Source: a virus
DNA length: 22,151 bases
Virus record (IMG/VR): IMGVR_UViG_3300025704_000129
Coordinates: 1 to 22,151 of that record
Strand: one strand, 5' to 3'
The notes under the pieces are model-generated. The model saw only the letters and a list, made by a program, of their open reading frames with translations. It did not search any database and was not told the origin of the DNA. This document shows, one piece after another, positions 3,361 through 18,992 of this stretch. A program made the position numbers and the translations under genes. Within the stretch, counting starts at the first letter, position 1. Every line of letters starts with the position of its first letter.

Positions 3361-6300
3361 ATGAGCGAAAAAGAATATATTGTAAGTTTAAATAAAGGTG
3401 TAGACTACGAAGCCTTTAATCAAGAAATGATTGCGGCAACAGGTGCAGGCGATATTCCAAGACGCTCAGTTGATGTTGCTAATGCAAGACTTTCTTCAAA
3501 CCGCAATACACACTATAGTTTAACTGATGCAGAAGCAGAAACACTAAGTAATGATCCTAGAGTATATGGTGTAACTTTGCTTCCAGATTTAGATCCAGAT
3601 ATTGGGATTGGGTTTGATACAGCCCAAACTGGAGACTTTACAAAAACTACACTGGACCGCGGTGACTTCCTAAACTGGGGTATGCGCAGAATGAACGAAG
3701 CTCTTAACCCGTATGTAGGAGTTAATGTAACTGGCAGCTATAATTATACGTTAGACGGTACAGGTGTTGATGTAGTTATTATGGATAGCGGCCTACAGAT
3801 TGACCATCCAGAATTTCAAGATGCAAATGGTGTAAGTAGAGTTGTAGAACTCGACTGGACAACAGCTAGTGGAATTGTTGGCATGCCTGCACAAAGTGTA
3901 AACTACTACAGAGATTTTGACGGACACGGTACACATGTAGCTGGCACAGCAACAGGTAAAACTTATGGTTGGGCAAAGAACGCTAAAATTTATAGTTTAA
4001 AACTTTCAGGTTTAGAAGGTCCGGGAGATAGCGGAACAGGGACAAGCACAACGTATGCTTTTGATTGTATAAAAGAATGGCACAAAGCTAAGCCAATTGA
4101 TCCTGCAACAGGTGCAAAACGTCCTACAGTAGTTAATATGAGTTGGGGATACCTTAGATTTTATGATACTGTTGTTAGTATGACTTATCGCGGAACTTCA
4201 AAAACTGGAACAGACATTGACTCAACTTCAAAGCGTTGGGCGTTCGGATTGCCGCCGTCCAACAATGGTGTACGATATACTACAAATGTTAGAATACCAT
4301 CAGTTGATGTTGATATGGAAGAACTAATTGACGCAGGCGTACACGTTATGGTAGCAGCTGGCAATAGAAGTCACAAAGTTGACGTAGTAGGGGGCGACGA
4401 TTACGATAATGTACTTGTGGCTAATACTGGATCAGTAAACTATCAAAGAGGTTCGTCGCCTTATAGTGTAAACGCACATATAGTCGGTAACGTAGATAGT
4501 AATATAAATGCAGGAGGATTAGAACAAAAAGCTGAAAGTTCAGAAGCAGGGCCAGGTGTTAGTGTATTTGCTCCAGGCACAGATATTATGAGTGCAATGA
4601 GTACTACAAACAAGTTCGGAGCAACTACGATTAATAATCCGTATCCTGCAAATTCAAGTTTCTTAATTAATAATATAAGCGGCACTAGTATGGCATCGCC
4701 ACAGGTAGCTGGAATGACAGCATTATGGTTGCAATTAAATCCTAGTGCAACGCCTGCGCAAGCACTAGCGTTCGTTAATACTACAGCTAAGACTACTGCT
4801 TTGTATAATACAGGTTCGCCTGCTACTGATTATACTGATACTCGCAGCTTGTTGGGAGCAACAAATAGATTTGCATTTAATAAATTTAACAGTGCAACAC
4901 AACTAACTATGGGCACAGCAGCAGAAGCTGTTGCTCCTGGTGCAGTAGCAACATATTCATTGTCATCAAGTGCAGCAAGTGTTAATGAAGGCAGTAGTGT
5001 AACAATTACTCTTACTACTACTAATGTTGCTAATGGCACGTCAGTCGGGTATCTTATATCTGGCATCGAATCAGGCGATATTAGTGAATCACTCACAGGT
5101 AACTTTACTGTAACTGGAAATACAGCAACAGCTACATTTAATATAACAGCAGATGCGACTACAGAAGGCGTACAAACTATGTTATTATCTCTAATTGGTA
5201 TTAGTGAGTCTGTTAGTGTTACAGTTAATGATACAAGTACTACACCGTTAGTACCTGCTTATGCAGTGTCACCAGCAGCAATCAACGTAGATGAAGGTAG
5301 TGCCTTAGTATTCAACGTTACTACAACTAACGTAAGTGATGCAACTACACTATATTGGAGTGTTACAAATGCAGGCGACTTTAGTACATCAACCGGTAGC
5401 TTTACAATTACAAGTAACGCAGGTTCGTTTAGTGTTACTCCAACTGCTGATGCAACAACTGAAGGCGCAGAAACATTTACTGCAAGTGTGAGAACAGGTA
5501 GTGTAAGTGGAACAATAGTTGCAACTTCGAGTACAGTTACAATTAACGATACAAGTACTACACCTGGCGGCAGCGAATCTTACTCACTTGCTGTAAGTTC
5601 AAGTTCTCTCCAGGAAGGCGAGAAGACAACGTTCACACTTACTACAGCAAATGTAGCTGATGCAACTAGCGTACCATACACAATCACAGGTGTTACTTCA
5701 AGTGATTTGAATACTGGTCCAAGGGCAAGCGGCACAGTAGGAAATACTGTAGGATACGGTAGTAATTTCTTTACTAGAGAAGTTAGAACAGCAGGTGTTA
5801 GATTAGTTAGTGCAGGATCAGTAGGCGGACAAACAGCAGTACCAGATGCATTTATTGAAAAAGTAGCACGTATGTTCCAGTTGTTTACTGATAGTGCAGG
5901 TGCAGGTATTAACGCAGGCAAACAAAACCAAATGATAGAAACATTACTTGGTAATACAACATCTTATCACTCGCCAAAGCCAACTATACAAAGAATTGCA
6001 AGAGGCGCCGGCGGAGATTATACTCCAAACTTCTTAGATGATGCAGGCATACGCTTTTGGGGTTTAGAACCATTGTTTGATGCAACAGTGCAAAACGATA
6101 TGGTTTGGTACTTAAACAGTAGTGGTACTCCTGGAACAGGTGACGAAGATGCACAAGAAGTTATTGAGCATGTATTCCACACACTACACATGCATGGTAT
6201 AGATGCAGTAACATTAAAAATGTATCCAACTCTAAGTGCAGATTGGGCAACTAGTGATTTGTATAACGCAATGGCTGAAGCATTTGATGGCAACTTTTGG

Positions 6301-7449
6301 GATCCATCAGGATATCAAAGTCCATCAAACGCATGGAAGACAGATCCAGATGCATTTGAAGTAGCAGTCAAAGAATACTTGTACTTGCTAAACTTCTGTA
6401 TGTTTGATTATTCAAGTCTATGGGATGGTGAAAGTCTTGCTCCAGAATGGAGTGATAGTCTAAAAACTCCAGCAGGTATACTAGCAAACAACCCATTAGG
6501 TTATGCGTTGTTTAATGCAAACATCGCCGATGTAATTAGTAAGCCATCTTTGGCAACTATTAGAACAATATTCCAAGACGGTGACGTAGGCGATCCAACA
6601 GTCGCAGGCGCATCGGGATATAGTGCAGATGCACCAATTTCATTAACTGGCAACTTTACAGTTAGTTCAAACACTGCTACACTTGAAATCAACACAGCAA
6701 AAGATGGAATCACTGATGGTGATAAAACACTTGCACTTGCGCTAAATAACGGCGAAGCATCAACAAACGTTAGTATTACAGATTCAAGTCAAAATGTTGG
6801 TCCAACTTACTATGCTTATCCAGCAGCCCAATCTATCGACGAAGGTAGTGCCCTAACAATAAATGTCGTAACAACAGATGTAACAGATGCAACTACACTT
6901 TATTGGAGTGTTACAGAAGCTGGCGACTTTGGCGTAACAACTGGTAGCTTTACAATCACAGGCAATACAGGTTCATTTACAGTGACTCCGACAGCAGATG
7001 AAGGAACTGAAGGTGCAGAAAACTTCCAAGTACAAATTAGAACAGGAAGTACTAGTGGTACAATTGTAGATACAACTAATCCAATTACAATTAACGATAC
7101 TAGTACAACTCCTACATTTACGCCAGACTACACAATCACTGTAACAAACGCGGGCAACAGTTATACGCTTTCAGGTACAGATAGAAATGGTGCAGTAAGT
7201 GGGTCGCAACCAACACTGGCATTTAACAGTGGTGATAATGTAAGATTTAATGTAGATGCAGGCACAGCAAGTGCGCATCCATTCTACATTAAAACTTCAC
7301 AAAGTACAGGCACTGGCAATCAAGTGTCGGGTGTTACCGGGGCAGGTACAACACAACTAGATTGGACAACCACTACTGACGGTGCCGGATCATACGGTTA
7401 TCAGTGTTCGATACACTTAGGCATGTGGAATACTATTACAATTACGTAA
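3361..7449 (+). CDS. Virion-associated subtilisin-like serine protease with Calx-beta-like and cupredoxin domains
   Basis: This 1362-aa protein begins with about 80 residues that may be a prodomain, then an S8 subtilase domain (about 105-510). The triad is clear: D142 in MDSGLQIDHPEF, H189 in DGHGTHVAG and S443 in SGTSMASPQ, with the oxyanion N335 in VAAGN. Calx-beta-like repeats follow (about 528-630, 632-735, 740-783 plus 1091-1145, and 1148-1250), several closing with NDTSTTP. The third is split by a ~307-residue insert (784-1090) containing EHVFHTLHMHG and many aromatic residues. The C-terminus (about 1255-1362) is cupredoxin-like, with H1306, C1349, H1352 and M1355. It has no signal peptide. 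A late promoter and fiber-gene neighbours suggest a virion protein that may cut host surface proteins or other phage proteins. That role is inferred; the protease fold is near certain. Confidence 0.9.
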   Translation: MSEKEYIVSLNKGVDYEAFNQEMIAATGAGDIPRRSVDVANARLSSNRNTHYSLTDAEAETLSNDPRVYGVTLLPDLDPDIGIGFDTAQTGDFTKTTLDRGDFLNWGMRRMNEALNPYVGVNVTGSYNYTLDGTGVDVVIMDSGLQIDHPEFQDANGVSRVVELDWTTASGIVGMPAQSVNYYRDFDGHGTHVAGTATGKTYGWAKNAKIYSLKLSGLEGPGDSGTGTSTTYAFDCIKEWHKAKPIDPATGAKRPTVVNMSWGYLRFYDTVVSMTYRGTSKTGTDIDSTSKRWAFGLPPSNNGVRYTTNVRIPSVDVDMEELIDAGVHVMVAAGNRSHKVDVVGGDDYDNVLVANTGSVNYQRGSSPYSVNAHIVGNVDSNINAGGLEQKAESSEAGPGVSVFAPGTDIMSAMSTTNKFGATTINNPYPANSSFLINNISGTSMASPQVAGMTALWLQLNPSATPAQALAFVNTTAKTTALYNTGSPATDYTDTRSLLGATNRFAFNKFNSATQLTMGTAAEAVAPGAVATYSLSSSAASVNEGSSVTITLTTTNVANGTSVGYLISGIESGDISESLTGNFTVTGNTATATFNITADATTEGVQTMLLSLIGISESVSVTVNDTSTTPLVPAYAVSPAAINVDEGSALVFNVTTTNVSDATTLYWSVTNAGDFSTSTGSFTITSNAGSFSVTPTADATTEGAETFTASVRTGSVSGTIVATSSTVTINDTSTTPGGSESYSLAVSSSSLQEGEKTTFTLTTANVADATSVPYTITGVTSSDLNTGPRASGTVGNTVGYGSNFFTREVRTAGVRLVSAGSVGGQTAVPDAFIEKVARMFQLFTDSAGAGINAGKQNQMIETLLGNTTSYHSPKPTIQRIARGAGGDYTPNFLDDAGIRFWGLEPLFDATVQNDMVWYLNSSGTPGTGDEDAQEVIEHVFHTLHMHGIDAVTLKMYPTLSADWATSDLYNAMAEAFDGNFWDPSGYQSPSNAWKTDPDAFEVAVKEYLYLLNFCMFDYSSLWDGESLAPEWSDSLKTPAGILANNPLGYALFNANIADVISKPSLATIRTIFQDGDVGDPTVAGASGYSADAPISLTGNFTVSSNTATLEINTAKDGITDGDKTLALALNNGEASTNVSITDSSQNVGPTYYAYPAAQSIDEGSALTINVVTTDVTDATTLYWSVTEAGDFGVTTGSFTITGNTGSFTVTPTADEGTEGAENFQVQIRTGSTSGTIVDTTNPITINDTSTTPTFTPDYTITVTNAGNSYTLSGTDRNGAVSGSQPTLAFNSGDNVRFNVDAGTASAHPFYIKTSQSTGTGNQVSGVTGAGTTQLDWTTTTDGAGSYGYQCSIHLGMWNTITIT
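5710..6630 (+). other. Globular domain inserted inside a Calx-beta-like repeat
   Basis: Reading across 5710-6630 in frame, the beta-domain beginning at about 5575 (EGEKTTFTLTT, then TITGVTSSDL) stops. It resumes at 6631 as APISLTGNFTVSSNTATLEI, which matches ESLTGNFTVTGNTATATFNI of the first repeat. The ~307 residues between are compositionally different: rich in W, F, Y, H, M and helix formers, with EVIEHVFHTLHMHG (about 6160-6200) as the most distinctive stretch. It looks like a complete domain placed in a loop. The histidine cluster could bind metal, but no canonical HExxH is present. Confidence 0.7.
7120..7446 (+). other. C-terminal cupredoxin-like domain of the protease
   Basis: The last ~105 codons of the protease encode a small beta domain with AHPFYIKTS, a DGAGSYGYQCSIHLGMW segment and a terminal NTITIT strand. 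H1306 plus the C-x2-H-x2-M cluster (C1349, H1352, M1355) has the spacing of a type 1 copper site such as that of amicyanin. Related YxCxxHxxM domains are known from marine phage structural proteins (from memory). Whether copper is bound is not shown. Confidence 0.7.
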
Positions 7450-9297: not shown

Positions 9298-12200
9298 ATG
9301 TTAGATTTATGGAACGTTGCAACTGGAACAAAACTAAAAACTATTATTGAACGATCTTCAGTAAACATACTATTACCTCTTGCAAATGGTATAGTTGCTG
9401 ACATAGAACTTATTAGTGGTAGTATTCCAACAGGCACACGATTAGAAAATAGTATAATAACAGGAACTGTGTTTGAAGTTGCTTATGATACAATATTTAC
9501 GGCTGTATTTAGAGCAACTACTGATGACGGATTTCAAGATTGCACTATAGAATTTATAGTTACTGGGCCTGATAGCCCAACATGGCAAACTAATGAAGGA
9601 TTGTTAGCTGTAGGTTCGAATAACAGTCTGTTTATCCTTGATAATGAAATTATTGATTATCAATTAGTAGCAACTGATACAGATTTGAGTGCAGGCGATG
9701 AGCTTAGTTATTTTATTGCAGATGGAGACGGTGTATTACCTCCAGGTATTACACTAAGTGATACTGGTAAACTACAAGGTACTACAGAGCCGCTTCTTAG
9801 TTTAGATAAAAGGTACACTGGCGGACAATACGATAGTGCGCCGTACGCTGGACTACCTATGGATTATACTGTACTAAGTTCAAATGGTTACGGTAGTTTT
9901 TATTATGATACTGTTGATTTTGATTATAACGAGCCAACAGCAAATTTAAGAAAATTAAATAGATATTATCCGTTTGCTGTTACAGTTACAGACGGCGAGA
10001 ATTTTGTTCGTAGAGAATTTAAGATTTATCTTGTAGGCGATGATTATCTAAAAGCAGATAACACTATTATGCAAGCAAGTACAGGTGTATTCACAGCGGA
10101 TAACACAGATGTGAGAACACCAGTTTGGATTACTCCTCGTGATTTAGGATTTAAACGTGCTAATAATTATACAACAATATATTTAGAAATTGTCGACAAC
10201 TGGACACTAGAAGGTGTTGTAGTTTATACTCTTGAAGATGTTAATGATGATGGCACTCCGAGCGAATTGCCGCTAGGAATGGCACTAGACAGTCAAACAG
10301 GCGAAGTAGTTGGACGTATTCCTTATCAGACTGCTATTACACAAGATTACAAATTTACAGTAAGAGCAACACGTATTACAACAGATTTAGATACAGTTAC
10401 AATATTTGCAAACTATTACGAAGATGTCTTATTAGGAAATTCTAGTTTTAAAATTAACAAAATTAATTTAACTGGCGACATAGACGGTACTAATGACCTA
10501 TTTGAATTAGTTGGTAAAAAGATTCTGTTAGGTAAAAGACAATATACAGTTATTAATGTTGATGACCGAAATGTAGATTATGATGTAATATTTGTAAATG
10601 AAACTCTTGCACCAAACATCAATTTATTATTAAGTCAAACTGCACAAATTGGTCAAGATCATATGTTTGTTTCTCGATTAAATGAAGCAGACAAATCAAA
10701 GTATCAAGGTAGAACATTAACATTTTCAAATACCGAATCGTATAATATAAACGGATTTACTCCCTACATTGAATGGCAAATTACGCAAACTACAGAAAAT
10801 AATCCAATTTTACCTGCTAATGCACCTAGAGTGATTGAAGTAAACACAAATTATTATGTTGGTGATTACGTTGTTAACACTGTTGAAACTGGCGGCGACG
10901 GAAAAATATATCAATGTACAGTGTCTCATTCGGTTACATCACAAAAAGACGAGTTTGGTGATGATGTACTATCTAATGGAATTATACAAATAAATTTTAT
11001 AGGTACAAACTGGAATGAAGTTGCAGAAACATTAGAAGGACTTAATGTAAATGACAGAGTTACAGCTACTAAACAGTCACTTGAAGCAGAATACAATGGT
11101 ACTGCATATATTACAGTAGTTGACAGTTTAAATTGGAGAGTAAGAGTTCCTAGTACTGCATATTCAAGAATTAAAACAAATATACAGGCATTTTTTAGTA
11201 GTGAAGATAGCAGTAATGTTATTGCAACATTAATACGCGACAACGAAGATAAAATAACACTTAGTACAAATTTAAGCTCACAGTTAAATAATGGCAGAAA
11301 TATTGGTATTGCGTTATTTGAAAAAGATAGTTTTTTCAAAAATATAATTGTTGCTGCAAATGACGAAGTTGATATACCTAGTACAGTTAAGACATTTGAA
11401 ATACGTGTAATTGGCGAAATTGATTCAAATATCAAATGGATATCACCAAGCGACTTAGGATTTATTAATGCTAACTTTACAAGCACTTTAAAATTAATTG
11501 CTGAAACAACTGTACCAGATACTGCTATGATTTATACACTTAAATCTGGTAAATTGCCATTTGGATTGACACTTGCTTATGATGGTGAAATTATCGGTGC
11601 AGCTAGACAATATGGCACAGTCGATGACCCTGGATTAACTATATTTGAAAACAAAACGGTTACTTGGGACGGAGCACTTCCAGGTGACACTACGTTTGAC
11701 AGAAACTATAAATTTACAGTTGAAGCAAGGGATAGATTTAACTACACTGCAATTGAACGAGAGTTTACTCTAAAAGTTGCAGACTTAGATAATACACAGT
11801 ATACTGACATTTATATGCGTCCGATGTTATCTGCAAAACAAAAAAGATATTACAAAGACTTTATAAGTAATCCAGAAGTATTTACACCTGAAAAAATTTA
11901 TAGATCTAGCGATTCCACTTTTGGAGTTCAAAAGAATTTAGATATGCTTGTTTATGCAGGAGTCGAAGCAGTGTCAATAGATAAGTTTATTGCAGGGGCT
12001 GCAAAAAATCATAAGCGTAAAAAATATATATTAGGGGAAATTAAAAGTGCTGTTGCAAAAGAGTCAGCTACAAGTGATACTATATACGAAGTGGTATACA
12101 TAGAAGTTAAAGACCCAGCAAATTCAACTACCGGCAATAAAACCGCTACTAGTTTTAAAACGGTAAGCAAAGAAAAGATTACAGTCGATAGTGTACAATA

Positions 12201-12807
12201 TGCAGTAATTGACAATACAACTAGATTCAGAGTAGGCTACAATGAATTAGCTGTGTATACTAGAAATACTGTGCGTTTTGTTTTTAGTGATTTAGACGAA
12301 ATAACAATCGAAACTAGAACAACTAATGATCAAGAACTAAATGTAGATAATCAAGATTTTGAAATCACTGTTAGAGATGGCGGAACAGTTGAAATTGAAT
12401 TACAAAAAGGTGACAGCGAACCATATCGTTTTAGACCTAAGACTAATACTATTAAAACAGATAGTAATGCAATCAATGTTAGTCAGTCAACTGACTCAAT
12501 TAAATATATATCTAGTATAGATAATATGAGAGCTAATATTAAAACTATCGGAGACGAGGAACGTTATTACTTACCCTTATGGATGCGCACTGCACAAGAA
12601 GGATTTCAAGAATTAGATTATGTAACTGCGATACCGATTTGCTATTGCAAGCCGGGTGAATCAAAAAATATAATGAATAACATTAAAAACTACGGATTTG
12701 ATCCAAAAACAATTAACTACGATATAGACAGATATATCGTGAAACGAACTGAAAATTCCGATGTCGAAAAATTTGTCCTGTTCGCAAATTACCAATTCAA
12801 CGTATGA
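9298..12807 (+). CDS. Large virion structural protein with Ig-like (He_PIG/cadherin-like) modules
   Basis: This 1169-aa protein (MLDLWNVATGTKLKTIIERS) resembles a long conserved structural protein of T4-like cyanophages. Putative Ig-type modules are seen as ISGSIPTGTRLENSIITGTV (about 39-58), GVLPPGITLSDTGKLQGT (about 149-166), LPLGMALDSQTGEVVGRIPY (about 324-343) and LPFGLTLAYDGEIIGAARQY (about 750-770). Each has the P-x-G-(I/M/L)-x-L...G-x-(I/V)-x-G pattern of the He_PIG family, followed by a YKFTV(R/E)A strand in the last two. The C-terminal ~300 residues are charged and lack this pattern. There is no signal peptide or membrane segment. Its own late promoter and position between fiber genes support a tail-fiber or baseplate-proximal role. 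The exact place in the virion is not known. Confidence 0.75.
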   Translation: MLDLWNVATGTKLKTIIERSSVNILLPLANGIVADIELISGSIPTGTRLENSIITGTVFEVAYDTIFTAVFRATTDDGFQDCTIEFIVTGPDSPTWQTNEGLLAVGSNNSLFILDNEIIDYQLVATDTDLSAGDELSYFIADGDGVLPPGITLSDTGKLQGTTEPLLSLDKRYTGGQYDSAPYAGLPMDYTVLSSNGYGSFYYDTVDFDYNEPTANLRKLNRYYPFAVTVTDGENFVRREFKIYLVGDDYLKADNTIMQASTGVFTADNTDVRTPVWITPRDLGFKRANNYTTIYLEIVDNWTLEGVVVYTLEDVNDDGTPSELPLGMALDSQTGEVVGRIPYQTAITQDYKFTVRATRITTDLDTVTIFANYYEDVLLGNSSFKINKINLTGDIDGTNDLFELVGKKILLGKRQYTVINVDDRNVDYDVIFVNETLAPNINLLLSQTAQIGQDHMFVSRLNEADKSKYQGRTLTFSNTESYNINGFTPYIEWQITQTTENNPILPANAPRVIEVNTNYYVGDYVVNTVETGGDGKIYQCTVSHSVTSQKDEFGDDVLSNGIIQINFIGTNWNEVAETLEGLNVNDRVTATKQSLEAEYNGTAYITVVDSLNWRVRVPSTAYSRIKTNIQAFFSSEDSSNVIATLIRDNEDKITLSTNLSSQLNNGRNIGIALFEKDSFFKNIIVAANDEVDIPSTVKTFEIRVIGEIDSNIKWISPSDLGFINANFTSTLKLIAETTVPDTAMIYTLKSGKLPFGLTLAYDGEIIGAARQYGTVDDPGLTIFENKTVTWDGALPGDTTFDRNYKFTVEARDRFNYTAIEREFTLKVADLDNTQYTDIYMRPMLSAKQKRYYKDFISNPEVFTPEKIYRSSDSTFGVQKNLDMLVYAGVEAVSIDKFIAGAAKNHKRKKYILGEIKSAVAKESATSDTIYEVVYIEVKDPANSTTGNKTATSFKTVSKEKITVDSVQYAVIDNTTRFRVGYNELAVYTRNTVRFVFSDLDEITIETRTTNDQELNVDNQDFEITVRDGGTVEIELQKGDSEPYRFRPKTNTIKTDSNAINVSQSTDSIKYISSIDNMRANIKTIGDEERYYLPLWMRTAQEGFQELDYVTAIPICYCKPGESKNIMNNIKNYGFDPKTINYDIDRYIVKRTENSDVEKFVLFANYQFNV

Positions 12808-14222: not shown

Positions 14223-14639
14223 ATGTCAAAGGTATCACAAGCTAAAAAACAACACAGAAGTATGCGTGGAAAACAAGTAGACATGGATCTGCTTAGAAAA
14301 CGCAATGAACTAACACCAGCAGTAGGTAATGCTCGTGTAAATGCACGTGGCGACGAATTAGGACCAGGTGGTCAAATTATTAAAAGTCGTGAAGATGTTG
14401 TTGCAGAACATTATGCAACAGCAGGCACAGCAGCAGAATCTACAGGTAGAACATCAGTACCAGTAGCCGACGAGCCTGAAGTTGTAGCAGTAGCAGAACA
14501 GCCTGTTAAAAAAACAGTAACACGTACTACTAAAAATTCAGCTTTGCCAGCAGAAGTAGCAGCTGAAGAAGCAGCATTAGATGCTGATGAAGAATGGATC
14601 GAAGACGATGACGGCAATTTTGTAAAAAAAGGTGAATAA
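14223..14639 (+). CDS. Hypothetical protein with basic N-terminus and acidic C-terminus (138 aa)
   Basis: The 138-aa product has a basic N-terminus (MSKVSQAKKQHRSMRGKQVD) and a conserved-looking core, ELTPAVGNARVNARGDELGP (about 29-48). A low-complexity Ala/Val/Glu/Thr linker (about 60-110) and a strongly acidic tail, EEWIEDDDGNFVKKGE, follow. The core resembles a conserved T4-like cyanophage ORF of unknown function. GGAG (14213-14216) sits 6-7 bases before the ATG. A TATAAT-like -10 (14203-14208) is present but lacks a good -35. Its stop overlaps the next ATG (TAATG). The pairing with a co-chaperonin gene is suggestive but proves nothing. Confidence 0.6.
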   Translation: MSKVSQAKKQHRSMRGKQVDMDLLRKRNELTPAVGNARVNARGDELGPGGQIIKSREDVVAEHYATAGTAAESTGRTSVPVADEPEVVAVAEQPVKKTVTRTTKNSALPAEVAAEEAALDADEEWIEDDDGNFVKKGE

Positions 14640-15043
14640 TGTCTGAAAATTTAAACGCAATTAAAGGAACTCCTCGAGCTAAAGGTGAAGATGTCCTAGT
14701 GATTGATATGGTCTTTGGCGAACAAGTTACACAAGGTGGAATTATTCTTACATCAGATGATGGAAAAACTAGAGGAATTTATCCACGTTGGGCTAAAGTT
14801 TACTCTGTAGGACCAAACAATAAAGATACTGAATTTAATGTAGGTGACTGGGTATTAATTAAACACGGACGCTGGACTCGAGGACTAAAACTTCAAACAG
14901 CTGATGGCGAAATTGAAATGCGTAAAGTTGAATTAGAAAGTATTTTAGCAGTATCTTCTGAAAGGCCAGATGGCACACAAATAGGCGCAGAATTTGCAGA
15001 CGGTGAACACGCAACTATTGATCCATCATCATTTTTAAAATAA
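14639..15043 (+). CDS. GroES/Cpn10-like co-chaperonin
   Basis: The 134-aa protein follows the Cpn10 pattern. RAKGEDVLVIDMV (about 13-25) matches the first strand, EQVTQGGIILTSDDGKTRGI (about 28-47) matches the mobile loop GGIVLP, AKVYSVGP is the G-x-V-x-A-V-G-P segment, and FNVGDWVLIKHGRWTRGLKL corresponds to VKVGDRVLF. T4 makes its own co-chaperonin gp31 to fold the capsid protein with host GroEL, and this is the likely counterpart (family knowledge plus inference). It is longer than GroES (about 97 aa) or gp31 (111 aa), with ~25 extra C-terminal residues. It starts at the TAATG overlap with the previous gene, after an AAAAAAGG ribosome-binding site. Confidence 0.65.
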   Translation: MSENLNAIKGTPRAKGEDVLVIDMVFGEQVTQGGIILTSDDGKTRGIYPRWAKVYSVGPNNKDTEFNVGDWVLIKHGRWTRGLKLQTADGEIEMRKVELESILAVSSERPDGTQIGAEFADGEHATIDPSSFLK

Positions 15044-15053
15044 GGCAAAAAAC

Positions 15054-15410
15054 ATGACAAATCCATTTAAAGACGTAGATACATTTGCAACAGCGTGTGA
15101 TCAGGCACCTAGCATTGAAAACTATGCTATGTATCTTGATTTAATTACAGAAGAGTACAACGAACTAAAAGACGCCATTGTAGCAAACGATCGTGTAGAA
15201 CAACTTGATGCACTAGTTGATATCTTAGTTGTAACTATGGGTGCTATTCGTGCAGGCGGCTTTGACGGAGAAGGTGCTTGGAAAGAAGTAATGGATACAA
15301 ACTTTGCAAAGATTGATGCAGAGACGGGCAAAGTACGCAAGCGCGAAGACGGAAAAGTACTTAAACCCGAGGGCTGGAAGGCGCCCAAACTTGCACAATT
15401 TATAAAATAA
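15054..15410 (+). CDS. MazG-like NTP pyrophosphohydrolase (first of two)
   Basis: This 118-aa all-alpha protein (MTNPFKDVDTFATACDQAPS) has the MazG/PRA-PH signature. E33, E34 and E37 lie in ITEEYNELKDA, and D52 and D56 lie in QLDALVDILVVTMG; these acidic residues bind Mg and hydrolyse a nucleoside triphosphate to the monophosphate and PPi. The tail contains FAKID followed by GKVRKREDGKVLKPEGWKAP, a segment typical of phage members of this family. Phage MazG proteins may clean the dNTP pool or lower host alarmone levels; the substrate is not readable here. It lies 10 bp after the co-chaperonin gene and is followed by a promoter/hairpin region. Confidence 0.8.
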   Translation: MTNPFKDVDTFATACDQAPSIENYAMYLDLITEEYNELKDAIVANDRVEQLDALVDILVVTMGAIRAGGFDGEGAWKEVMDTNFAKIDAETGKVRKREDGKVLKPEGWKAPKLAQFIK

Positions 15411-16619: not shown

Positions 16620-16941
16620 TATCGACGGCACTATCTGTAAAGAAGTAATTATACCTAACAGTGGTGGAAAGAAAGACTACGCTAATCATATTCCGATGCC
16701 AGAACGCATTGCTAAAGTAAATGCACTATACAATGCAGGACATACAATCAAATATATGACAGCACGAGGGTGTGTTAGTGGTGTAAACTATTTTGAACTT
16801 ACTTATAAACAGCTAATGGACTGGGGCGCAAAGCATCACGAACTAAGTGTAGGCGAAAAAGAAAACTACGATATTTGGATTGACGACAAAGCATTTTGGA
16901 GTGAAAACTTCTTCCGTGAAACAGGAGAGTCATATGAGTGA
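16603..16941 (+). CDS. HAD-superfamily phosphatase
   Basis: The 112-aa protein starts at TTG 16603, eight bases after GGAG. It has HAD motif I MKYVIDIDGTIC (nucleophile D6 and D8), motif II T53 in YMTARG, and motif IV D94/D95 in IWIDDKAF. It is small, with hardly any cap domain, so it may act on a phosphorylated macromolecule, sugar or nucleotide. It overlaps the fructose-bisphosphate aldolase gene by 8 bp, which suggests a joint role in sugar-phosphate flow, but the substrate is inference only. Similar small HAD proteins are common in T4-like marine phages. Confidence 0.8.
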   Translation: MKYVIDIDGTICKEVIIPNSGGKKDYANHIPMPERIAKVNALYNAGHTIKYMTARGCVSGVNYFELTYKQLMDWGAKHHELSVGEKENYDIWIDDKAFWSENFFRETGESYE

Positions 16942-17743
16942 TCACAGATTTATTGCAGCAATGGATCACAGTGGTGGCTCAACTGGTGGCGTATTAGAAC
17001 GCTATGGACAAGCGTACACAGAAGCAGACAAGATGGAGAAAGTTCATACTATGCGTCTTAGAATGGTCAACAGTCCTGACTTCAACGACAGTAACATCTG
17101 GGGAGCAATCCTCTACCAAGACACAGTCACACGTGGCATGGTTAACATCTTGGATGAAAAAGGTATTGACACGTTCCTAAAGATTGACAGTGGATGTGAC
17201 GAAGATGGCACACTCAAACAGTTTCCAGTAAAGCAGATGTTGGAGTGGGCTACAAACGGCATTGGTCCCAAAATCTACGGCACTAAGATGCGTAGCATTG
17301 TACATGGTGTAGGAATGATTCATCCTGTACTCAAACAACAATTTACCCTTGCTCGTACTATTTGGGAGCATGGGCTTGTACCTATTATTGAACCAGAAGT
17401 GCCCATTGATCATCCTATCAAAGCTGAAGTCGAAGACGCTCTTATGTATCACTTGCAAGAGTTCTTAGATGAATATCCAGGCAAGTGTATTCTCAAACTA
17501 ACGCCGCCGGAAGTGCCCAACTTGTATCACAACCTTACAGTGTTTCCTAATGTAGAACGTGTTGTGTTTCTAAGTGGCGGATACAGCACAAACGAAGCAT
17601 GTAATAAACTAGGTCTTAATGATAACGTAACTGCCAGCTTTAGTAGAGCATTGTCAGAAGGATTACGTTATGACTTGACAGACGAAGATTTTAATGCTAA
17701 AATGAGCAGTAACATTAAACAAATAACAAAGGCAAGTGAATGA
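16934..17743 (+). CDS. fba: Class I fructose-bisphosphate aldolase
   Basis: I place the start at ATG 16934 (MSDHRFIAAMDHSGGSTGG), six bases after AGGAG; an upstream in-frame extension to 16880 lacks this context. The 269-aa protein matches the bacterial class I aldolase family. D11 lies in AAMDHSGGST, K83 in FLKID, K118 in KMRSI, E153 in PIIEPEVPI, and the Schiff-base lysine K188 in ILKLTPPEVPNLY, followed by SGGYSTNEACNKL. It cleaves or forms fructose 1,6-bisphosphate from DHAP and glyceraldehyde 3-phosphate without metal. As an auxiliary metabolic gene it could feed gluconeogenesis and pentose-phosphate flux for nucleotides (inference). It is slightly shorter than typical bacterial versions (about 295). 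It overlaps the HAD gene (8 bp) and gp44 (ATGA). Confidence 0.9.
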   Translation: MSDHRFIAAMDHSGGSTGGVLERYGQAYTEADKMEKVHTMRLRMVNSPDFNDSNIWGAILYQDTVTRGMVNILDEKGIDTFLKIDSGCDEDGTLKQFPVKQMLEWATNGIGPKIYGTKMRSIVHGVGMIHPVLKQQFTLARTIWEHGLVPIIEPEVPIDHPIKAEVEDALMYHLQEFLDEYPGKCILKLTPPEVPNLYHNLTVFPNVERVVFLSGGYSTNEACNKLGLNDNVTASFSRALSEGLRYDLTDEDFNAKMSSNIKQITKASE

Positions 17744-18654
17744 AAGAACTATGGGTAGAAAAGTACCGACCAAGCACAGTAGATGGGTATGTGTTCCGCG
17801 ATGATGCACAACGCAATCAAGTAAACACATGGATCAAAGACAATAGTATCCCACATCTGTTGTTTAGTGGCAATGCAGGCATTGGTAAAACTACCCTTGC
17901 CAAGCTATTGTTTAATGAGTTAGATCTTCATCCGTTGGATATTTTAGAAATTAACGCAAGTCGAACTAACAGTGTAGATGATGTTCGTGATAAGATTGTT
18001 TCATTTGTACAAATGATTCCGTTTGGTGACTTTAAGGTTGTACTACTTGACGAGGCTGATTACTTGTCGCCCAACGCACAAGCAGCACTACGTGGCGTTA
18101 TGGAAGAATATCACACAACAGCACGTTTTATTCTTACTTGTAACTATCCTAATAGAATTATTCCGGCAATTCATAGTAGAACACAAGGGTTTCATATTGC
18201 TAAGATTGACCAAACAGAGTTTACAGCACGTATTGCAACTATTCTTATTACAGAAGGCATTACTCCAGACTTAGATACACTCGACACGTATGTTAAAGCT
18301 ACGTATCCAGACTTGCGTAAATGTATTAATATGGTGCAACAAAATGTAGTTGATAACAGTCTTGTTAAACCCAGCGAAGGCGACAGTGGCGAAGCTGACT
18401 GGAAACTTGAAATGGTTGAACTATTCAAAGCACGTAAGATTAACGAAGCACGTAAGATGCTTTGTGGTAGAGTACGTGCAGAAGAAATGGAAGAGATTTA
18501 TCGTTGGTTGTATGATAATATTGAACTATTCGGGAGTGAAGATAAACAAGATGCAGCAGTGCTAACTATTAAGCAAGGGTTAGTAGATCATACACTAGTT
18601 GTAGATCCAGAGATTAATCTTGCAGCAACACTTATTCGATTAGGAGCACTATGA
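17740..18654 (+). CDS. 44: Sliding clamp loader large subunit, T4 gp44-like
   Basis: The 304-aa AAA+ ATPase begins [19 protein letters not shown], typical of RFC/gp44 proteins. Walker A is GNAGIGKT (44-51), Walker B LLDEAD (102-107), sensor 1 [10 protein letters not shown] (131-140), and an SRT version of the SRC box lies at 146-148. It should load the gp45 clamp onto primer-template DNA with gp62. The start overlaps the aldolase stop as ATGA, and its own stop overlaps the ferredoxin start the same way. In T4 gene 44 is followed by 62; here a ferredoxin gene occupies that place, and no gp62 is visible in the window. Confidence 0.93.
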
Positions 18655-18992
18655 CTTACATTGTAAATGATGCATGTATTAAATGCAAACATATGGATTG
18701 TGTTGAAGTATGCCCTGTAGACTGTTTTTACGAAGGCGAAAACATGTTGGTGATCAATCCAACTGAGTGCATTGACTGCGGAGTATGCGAACCAGAATGT
18801 CCGGCTGATGCTATCCTTCCTGATACTACACCCGGTGCAGCAGACTGGGTAGACTTTAATCAAAAGTATTCAGACCTTTGGCCTGTAATTACACAAATGC
18901 GTCCAGAAGATACTCCTGCAGATGCAGAAGACTGGCACGGCGTAGAAAACAAAATGGAGTTCTTTAGTGAATCTCCAGGAAAAGGAGACTAA
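18651..18992 (+). CDS. fdxA: Seven-iron ferredoxin (FdxA type, [3Fe-4S][4Fe-4S])
   Basis: The 113-aa protein starts [20 protein letters not shown] and carries the cysteines of an Azotobacter-type 7Fe ferredoxin: C9, C17, C21 and C12/C25 near the N-terminus, then C40, C43, C46 and C50 in [12 protein letters not shown]. The long C-terminus ([20 protein letters not shown]) and SPGKGD end are typical of alphaproteobacterial FdxA. It transfers electrons at low potential; the partner in the infected cell is unknown. It overlaps gp44 by ATGA, so it is co-translated with a replication protein. It was probably acquired from an alphaproteobacterial host (inference). It differs from the plant-type [2Fe-2S] ferredoxin carried by cyanophages. 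Confidence 0.92.

Follow-up and report, generated by a model that had tools for sequence, protein, structure and literature searches.

The window, i.e. the whole stretch of DNA analysed here, is a 22,151-base virus record. Among its genes is one for a large subtilase-bearing protein, from here on the carrier, in which beta repeats follow the protease domain and the third repeat is interrupted by a module of about 300 residues (Table 1). In a PHROGs search, the carrier matches PHROG 9158 (E 1e-87) and the protease phrog_3677, and its subtilase motifs HGTH and SGTSMASP are also kept by its relatives. The cupredoxin-like domain at its C-terminus has an H...C...H...M spacing, and a similar stretch lies mid-protein in some relatives (L174).

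Table 1. Features of the window, with nucleotide coordinates
Feature	Coordinates	Strand	Evidence and remarks
Carrier protein, 1362 aa, no internal stop	3361..7449	+	S8 subtilase, four beta repeats, inserted module, cupredoxin-like C-terminus
Subtilase (S8) domain, HGTH and SGTSMASP motifs	3757..4797	+	PF00082, E 1.8e-27, residues 133-479
Beta repeat 1, intact	4945..5238	+	Repeat HMM 4-102, 112 bits
Beta repeat 2, intact	5248..5556	+	Repeat HMM 3-102, 97 bits
Repeat 3, N-terminal half, interrupted	5575..5709	+	HMM positions 5-52 only
Inserted module, 307 aa, residues 784-1090	5710..6630	+	Confidently predicted alpha/beta fold; no known family matched
E-H-V-F-H-T-L-H motif on predicted helix	6166..6189	+	E/H/H/H invariant; model and alignment
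Glu222 (module numbering) in KEYLYLLN, candidate third metal ligand	6373..6375	+	Invariant; alignment; collinear with TEYxYW of the EExxH family
Repeat 3, C-terminal half, interrupted	6631..6789	+	HMM positions 52-102
Beta repeat 4, intact	6799..7104	+	Repeat HMM 4-102, 84 bits
Cupredoxin-like C-terminal domain, weak	7228..7443	+	PF00127, 15.1 bits, under cut-off of 21.2
Module-free homologue of the L067 carrier	9298..12807	+	Empty site near residue 106, ~nt 9613-9621
ORF, 172 aa	13677-14195		Partial match only, to positions 15-94 of PF07733 (DNA polymerase III alpha NTPase domain); 45%-identity counterparts in PA5oct/MIJ3-like jumbo phages
GroES-like gene	14639-15043		By eye
MazG-like gene	15054-15410		By eye
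Class I fructose-bisphosphate aldolase-like gene, phage-encoded	16880-17743		PF00274, E 5.5e-7
Small ferredoxin-like gene	18651-18992		By eye

A nested domain insertion

The first-pass annotation had proposed that a domain of ~307 residues is inserted precisely inside one repeat, that the sequences on its two sides together make a repeat like its neighbours, and that both parts are preserved. A repeat HMM of 102 positions, built from 17 uninterrupted repeats of relatives, bears this out. It finds four repeats in the carrier, the third of which is split into a match to HMM positions 5-52 at residues 739-786 (48 bits) and a match to positions 52-102 at residues 1093-1143 (40 bits). When the insert is skipped, repeat 3 becomes a single match to positions 5-102 (96.7 bits, i-E 2e-31). 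Thus, the two halves abut at HMM position 52 without loss or duplication, and the insert boundaries are correct to about 3 residues.

We also looked for homologues with the same repeat uninterrupted and found it in ten relatives of the same subtilase-plus-repeats protein (L174-L176, L182-L184, L187, L191, L193 and L196). As an example of such an empty site, YTITGVTSADIGGESLTGNFTV corresponds to YTITGVTSSDL, the insert and APISLTGNFTV in the window. No relative was seen in which one continuous domain spans the region. The idea that the region is a single, fast-evolving domain of the subtilase protein resembling a repeat by chance is contradicted by the split and joined HMM matches, by the empty-site relatives and by the occurrence of the module without the repeat in other proteins, has no point in its favor, and is rejected with near certainty. 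These data confirm that the nested insertion is real.

The earlier description of the repeats as Calx-beta-like is not confirmed by Pfam: in a search of the carrier, Calx-beta (PF03160) was not found at E<=1, although the top PDB fold matches of the flanks in Foldseek are Calx/NCX CBD1 domains, at weak significance (E 0.07-0.17, prob 0.57-0.77, over 54-62 columns).

A conserved family in phages and marine bacteria

The insert has no match in profile searches of Pfam, PHROGs and NCBIfam, and nothing better than E 0.87 among PDB sequences. By tblastn, the module is present in 85 phage records, all of them cyanophages, at 60-80% identity and with nothing weaker up to E 10. IMG/VR yielded 140 to 187 related stretches, depending on which of two queries was used, and with the Flavobacteriaceae version described below as query, it yielded 38 stretches that belong to a second, deeper subfamily. 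No matches were found on plasmids. Conservation is nevertheless high, with a mean column identity of 79% across 38 aligned modules. EHVFHTLHMHG, to which the first-pass annotation had drawn attention, is indeed present in the insert, and its E153, H154, H157 and H160 (module numbering) do not vary among 113 aligned homologues, in which H87, E150, E222, E246 and D249 complete the set of invariant polar residues. Because dN/dS is ~0.1-0.3 in two pairs of modules (L023/L116 and L014/L016), the module is under purifying selection.

A GTDB scan identified the module in 12 marine bacterial genomes, where it forms the C-terminal domain of secreted proteins or lipoproteins with signal or lipoprotein N-termini. 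Identity is 60-64% in Actinomarinales, 57% in an Opitutaceae bacterium, and 41-45% in Opitutales and Flavobacteriaceae. At the sequence level, the module therefore demonstrably shares ancestry with the C-terminal domain of these marine bacterial proteins. The gene neighbors are constant within Opitutales (ketopantoate reductase, nadB, panC, proS and eno, as read from translations) and within Actinomarinales (fabF- and fabI-like genes), which makes the module gene an inherited cellular gene in these two groups. In Flavobacteriaceae (L089), the gene adjoins one for an alpha-L-fucosidase, and a glycosyl hydrolase-like gene is near. Among 289 genomes of the phylum of one Opitutales source (L091), only the source genome itself has the module, which is thus rare in cells. 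On the module tree, phage and bacterial rows interleave (3 changes); therefore, transfers between phages and bacteria have occurred.

In the Opitutales protein L091, the module is preceded by a divergent domain that belongs to a small family of secreted Opitutales proteins (L091 N-terminus, L224-L227 and L241-L245), here called the EExxH family. This domain is collinear with the module over ~213 columns (hhalign P 2.7e-6; reversed control 0.2), with DATLEEVLH aligning near DAQEVIEHVFH of the module, and TEYxYW with KEYLYL. The two differ in that identity is only ~23%, E replaces H154, and the EExxH family was found here only in bacteria, with no viral relatives. By eye, members of this family are fused to a YHYH-like domain (L225) or an HEMGH-type metallopeptidase (L227). 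At residues 280-380, L091 also has a WYxSxWFGxF...GWLY repeat domain that is widespread in Opitutales secreted proteins and perhaps functions in binding or anchoring.

Insertion sites and module ends

Clustering of the flanks of 103 distinct viral loci gave ~28 groups of insertion sites, a count that is approximate, given that S6 and S7 are loose clusters and that S3 and S5 may represent a single homologous position. At all of these sites the module is in-frame and in a virion protein. The sites include the beta repeat (S1), PT-rich linkers (S2), a catalytic-domain loop of the subtilase that directly follows the Asp region DHPEF (S3, where both subfamilies occur; S5 is its likely counterpart), the end of a subtilase protein (S4), baseplate wedge-type proteins (S9, S11, S15 and S28), and fibre-type proteins. 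Carriers match tail, baseplate and virion-structural PHROGs; for instance, a Syn33/S-RIM2-type carrier of 1709 residues, including the module, matches all of phrog_708 (positions 1 to 1383 of 1383). In other words, several unrelated virion structural proteins contain the module, as is characteristic of a displayed phage accessory domain. The window itself provides another empty site: residues 3-106 and 610 onward of the L067 carrier, in which the module is at residues 141-446, match residues 2-105 and 108 onward of the module-free homologue in Table 1. The existence of ~28 sites means that actual insertions are needed.

In the main subfamily, the module has one sharp pair of ends, DPEYNNG...SGYVVD, immediately outside of which the flanking sequence diverges. 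There is no target-site duplication at these ends, as flank repeats average 5.0 nt compared to 4.8 nt for mismatched pairs.

Predicted structure and a candidate metal site

AF2 modelling of residues 730-1160 on a 66-row alignment was confident, with a mean pLDDT of 85 and a pTM of 0.80; from the single sequence, pLDDT was 34. In the model, the flanks form strands on both sides of the module, which consists of a hairpin, two helices, two strands, a long helix carrying EVIEHVFHTLHMHG and, later, a long helix carrying KEYLYLLN. Foldseek searches of PDB and BFVD returned mainly beta-sandwich matches, which are to the flanks. There was no PDB match at E<=0.001, and among the 50 Foldseek matches listed, which were dominated by the flanks that the submitted model also contained, none was to the module.

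Together with a second, distant E, the invariant E-H-x-x-H-x-x-H suggests a zincin-like site in which Glu takes the position of the first His. In this arrangement, E153 and H157 (i, i+4) together with E222 would be the shared positions most likely to serve as metal ligands. Zincin metallopeptidases of the gluzincin layout resemble the module in having a strand, a helix with an E/H cluster and a later Glu helix in a similar order. However, zincins have HExxH whereas the module has EHxxH in 113 of 113 homologues, and no zincin was matched in sequence, or in fold among the matches listed. Because HExxH is absent, we do not class the module as a zincin, and any enzymatic activity is putative. Its most likely function, we infer, is at the host surface, as a metal-dependent enzyme or binding domain. 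More specifically, and only tentatively, we propose that its target is on the host cell surface and is bound or acted upon through a zincin-like metal site formed by E/H/H on one helix and E222 on another.

An alternative that we regard as less likely is that the module is a non-catalytic adhesion or ligand-binding domain, e.g. glycan-binding, in which the His/Glu cluster is structural. Its placement in tail, baseplate and fibre proteins fits this idea, as do the carbohydrate-related neighbors of the Flavobacteriaceae relative, and phage tails typically display promiscuous domains. However, the strict conservation of many polar residues in 113 homologues exceeds the needs of a scaffold, and the neighborhoods in Actinomarinales and Opitutales consist of housekeeping genes.

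Copy number and movement between virion genes

Each of the 33 records with a match has a single full-length module, although in one of them a second, partial copy lies at the contig end, and all 85 cyanophage records have the module at one place each; because IMG/VR records are mostly fragments, single copy is established only for the complete cyanophage genomes. When site labels are mapped on the module tree, at least 43 changes are required, whereas 28 would be the minimum, and 7 are needed for the subtilase-loop site alone. The beta-repeat site was reached twice, since in L116 this repeat loop is occupied by a module from the S4/S11 group. Modules that are nearly identical lie in unlike contexts (96.5% nucleotide identity for L023/L116 and 98.1% for L014/L016). 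Part of the conflict between sites and tree may reflect gene conversion between modules instead of relocation. The clamp loader in the window shares 53% identity with its counterpart in a PA5oct-like jumbo phage and ~35% with those of cyanophages, while the window module is ~67% identical to cyanophage modules. Thus, the module has crossed phage lineages.

A further reading, which we consider very unlikely, is that the module is mobile in its own right. It would be a protein-coding element with defined DNA ends that enters loops of virion genes in-frame by an undescribed route of its own, and thus a protein-level transposon that also confers a function on the virion.

Another reading, which we judge highly improbable, is that the module is a self-splicing or self-mobile, intein-like element that is removed post-translationally or moved by its own endonuclease. 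The same discrete ends at many sites, the near-identical copies in unlike contexts, and the occurrence of a copy in the subtilase domain that separates the conserved Asp region from the catalytic His are all compatible with such an element. However, across the 28 sites, the module lacks an N-terminal Cys/Ser, a C-terminal His-Asn and a conserved +1 nucleophile (Cys/Ser/Thr), its ends being DPEYNN and SGYVVD followed by varied residues. Moreover, no endonuclease or Hint match was found in Pfam or NCBIfam, target-site duplication is absent, copies do not build up within genomes, and the bacterial versions end their proteins, leaving nothing to splice to. On these grounds we reject this reading.

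Discussion

The module is precisely nested in its carrier and occurs at many sites with constant ends, mostly in single copy and under purifying selection. We suggest, as a reading that is moderately probable, that it is a mobile domain, displayed on virions and probably binding metal, which marine bacterial surface proteins have as well. In this model, the insert would fold on its own and would move from one virion protein to another in marine myoviruses. Phages would carry it mostly in one copy, placed in loops or linkers that are exposed on proteins of the tail, baseplate and fibre region, so that the carrier keeps its fold; in the window, the copy would sit in a loop of the third beta repeat. 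Display on the particle is inferred from the carrier families and the gene neighborhood. Movement would probably occur when structural genes of co-infecting phages recombine in the ordinary way and frame and fold happen to survive, and selection would keep the module at one copy.

The data name an unannotated family common to marine phages and marine bacterial surface proteins. The phages with the module include cultured Synechococcus cyanophages, and it becomes testable what a phage gains by mounting one copy on its particle.

Promiscuous Ig-like domains are displayed on structural proteins of phages. The module resembles these domains in being compact, present in many unrelated virion proteins of tailed phages and presumably exposed. 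It is unlike them in being ~300 residues long, alpha/beta, strongly conserved and mostly present in one copy per genome, and in being found both appended to proteins and inserted into other domains. Domain shuffling is also known for phage receptor-binding and baseplate proteins, with recent exchange of fragments between tail-protein classes and across lineages (Smug et al. 2023, PMC10684548), in a text in which the words "nested" and "cyanophage" are absent. Here, by contrast, a single defined module with constant ends is tracked through ~28 sites. It represents a clear example in nature of one large domain that has repeatedly entered other folds in frame, and in which occupied and empty sites can be compared.
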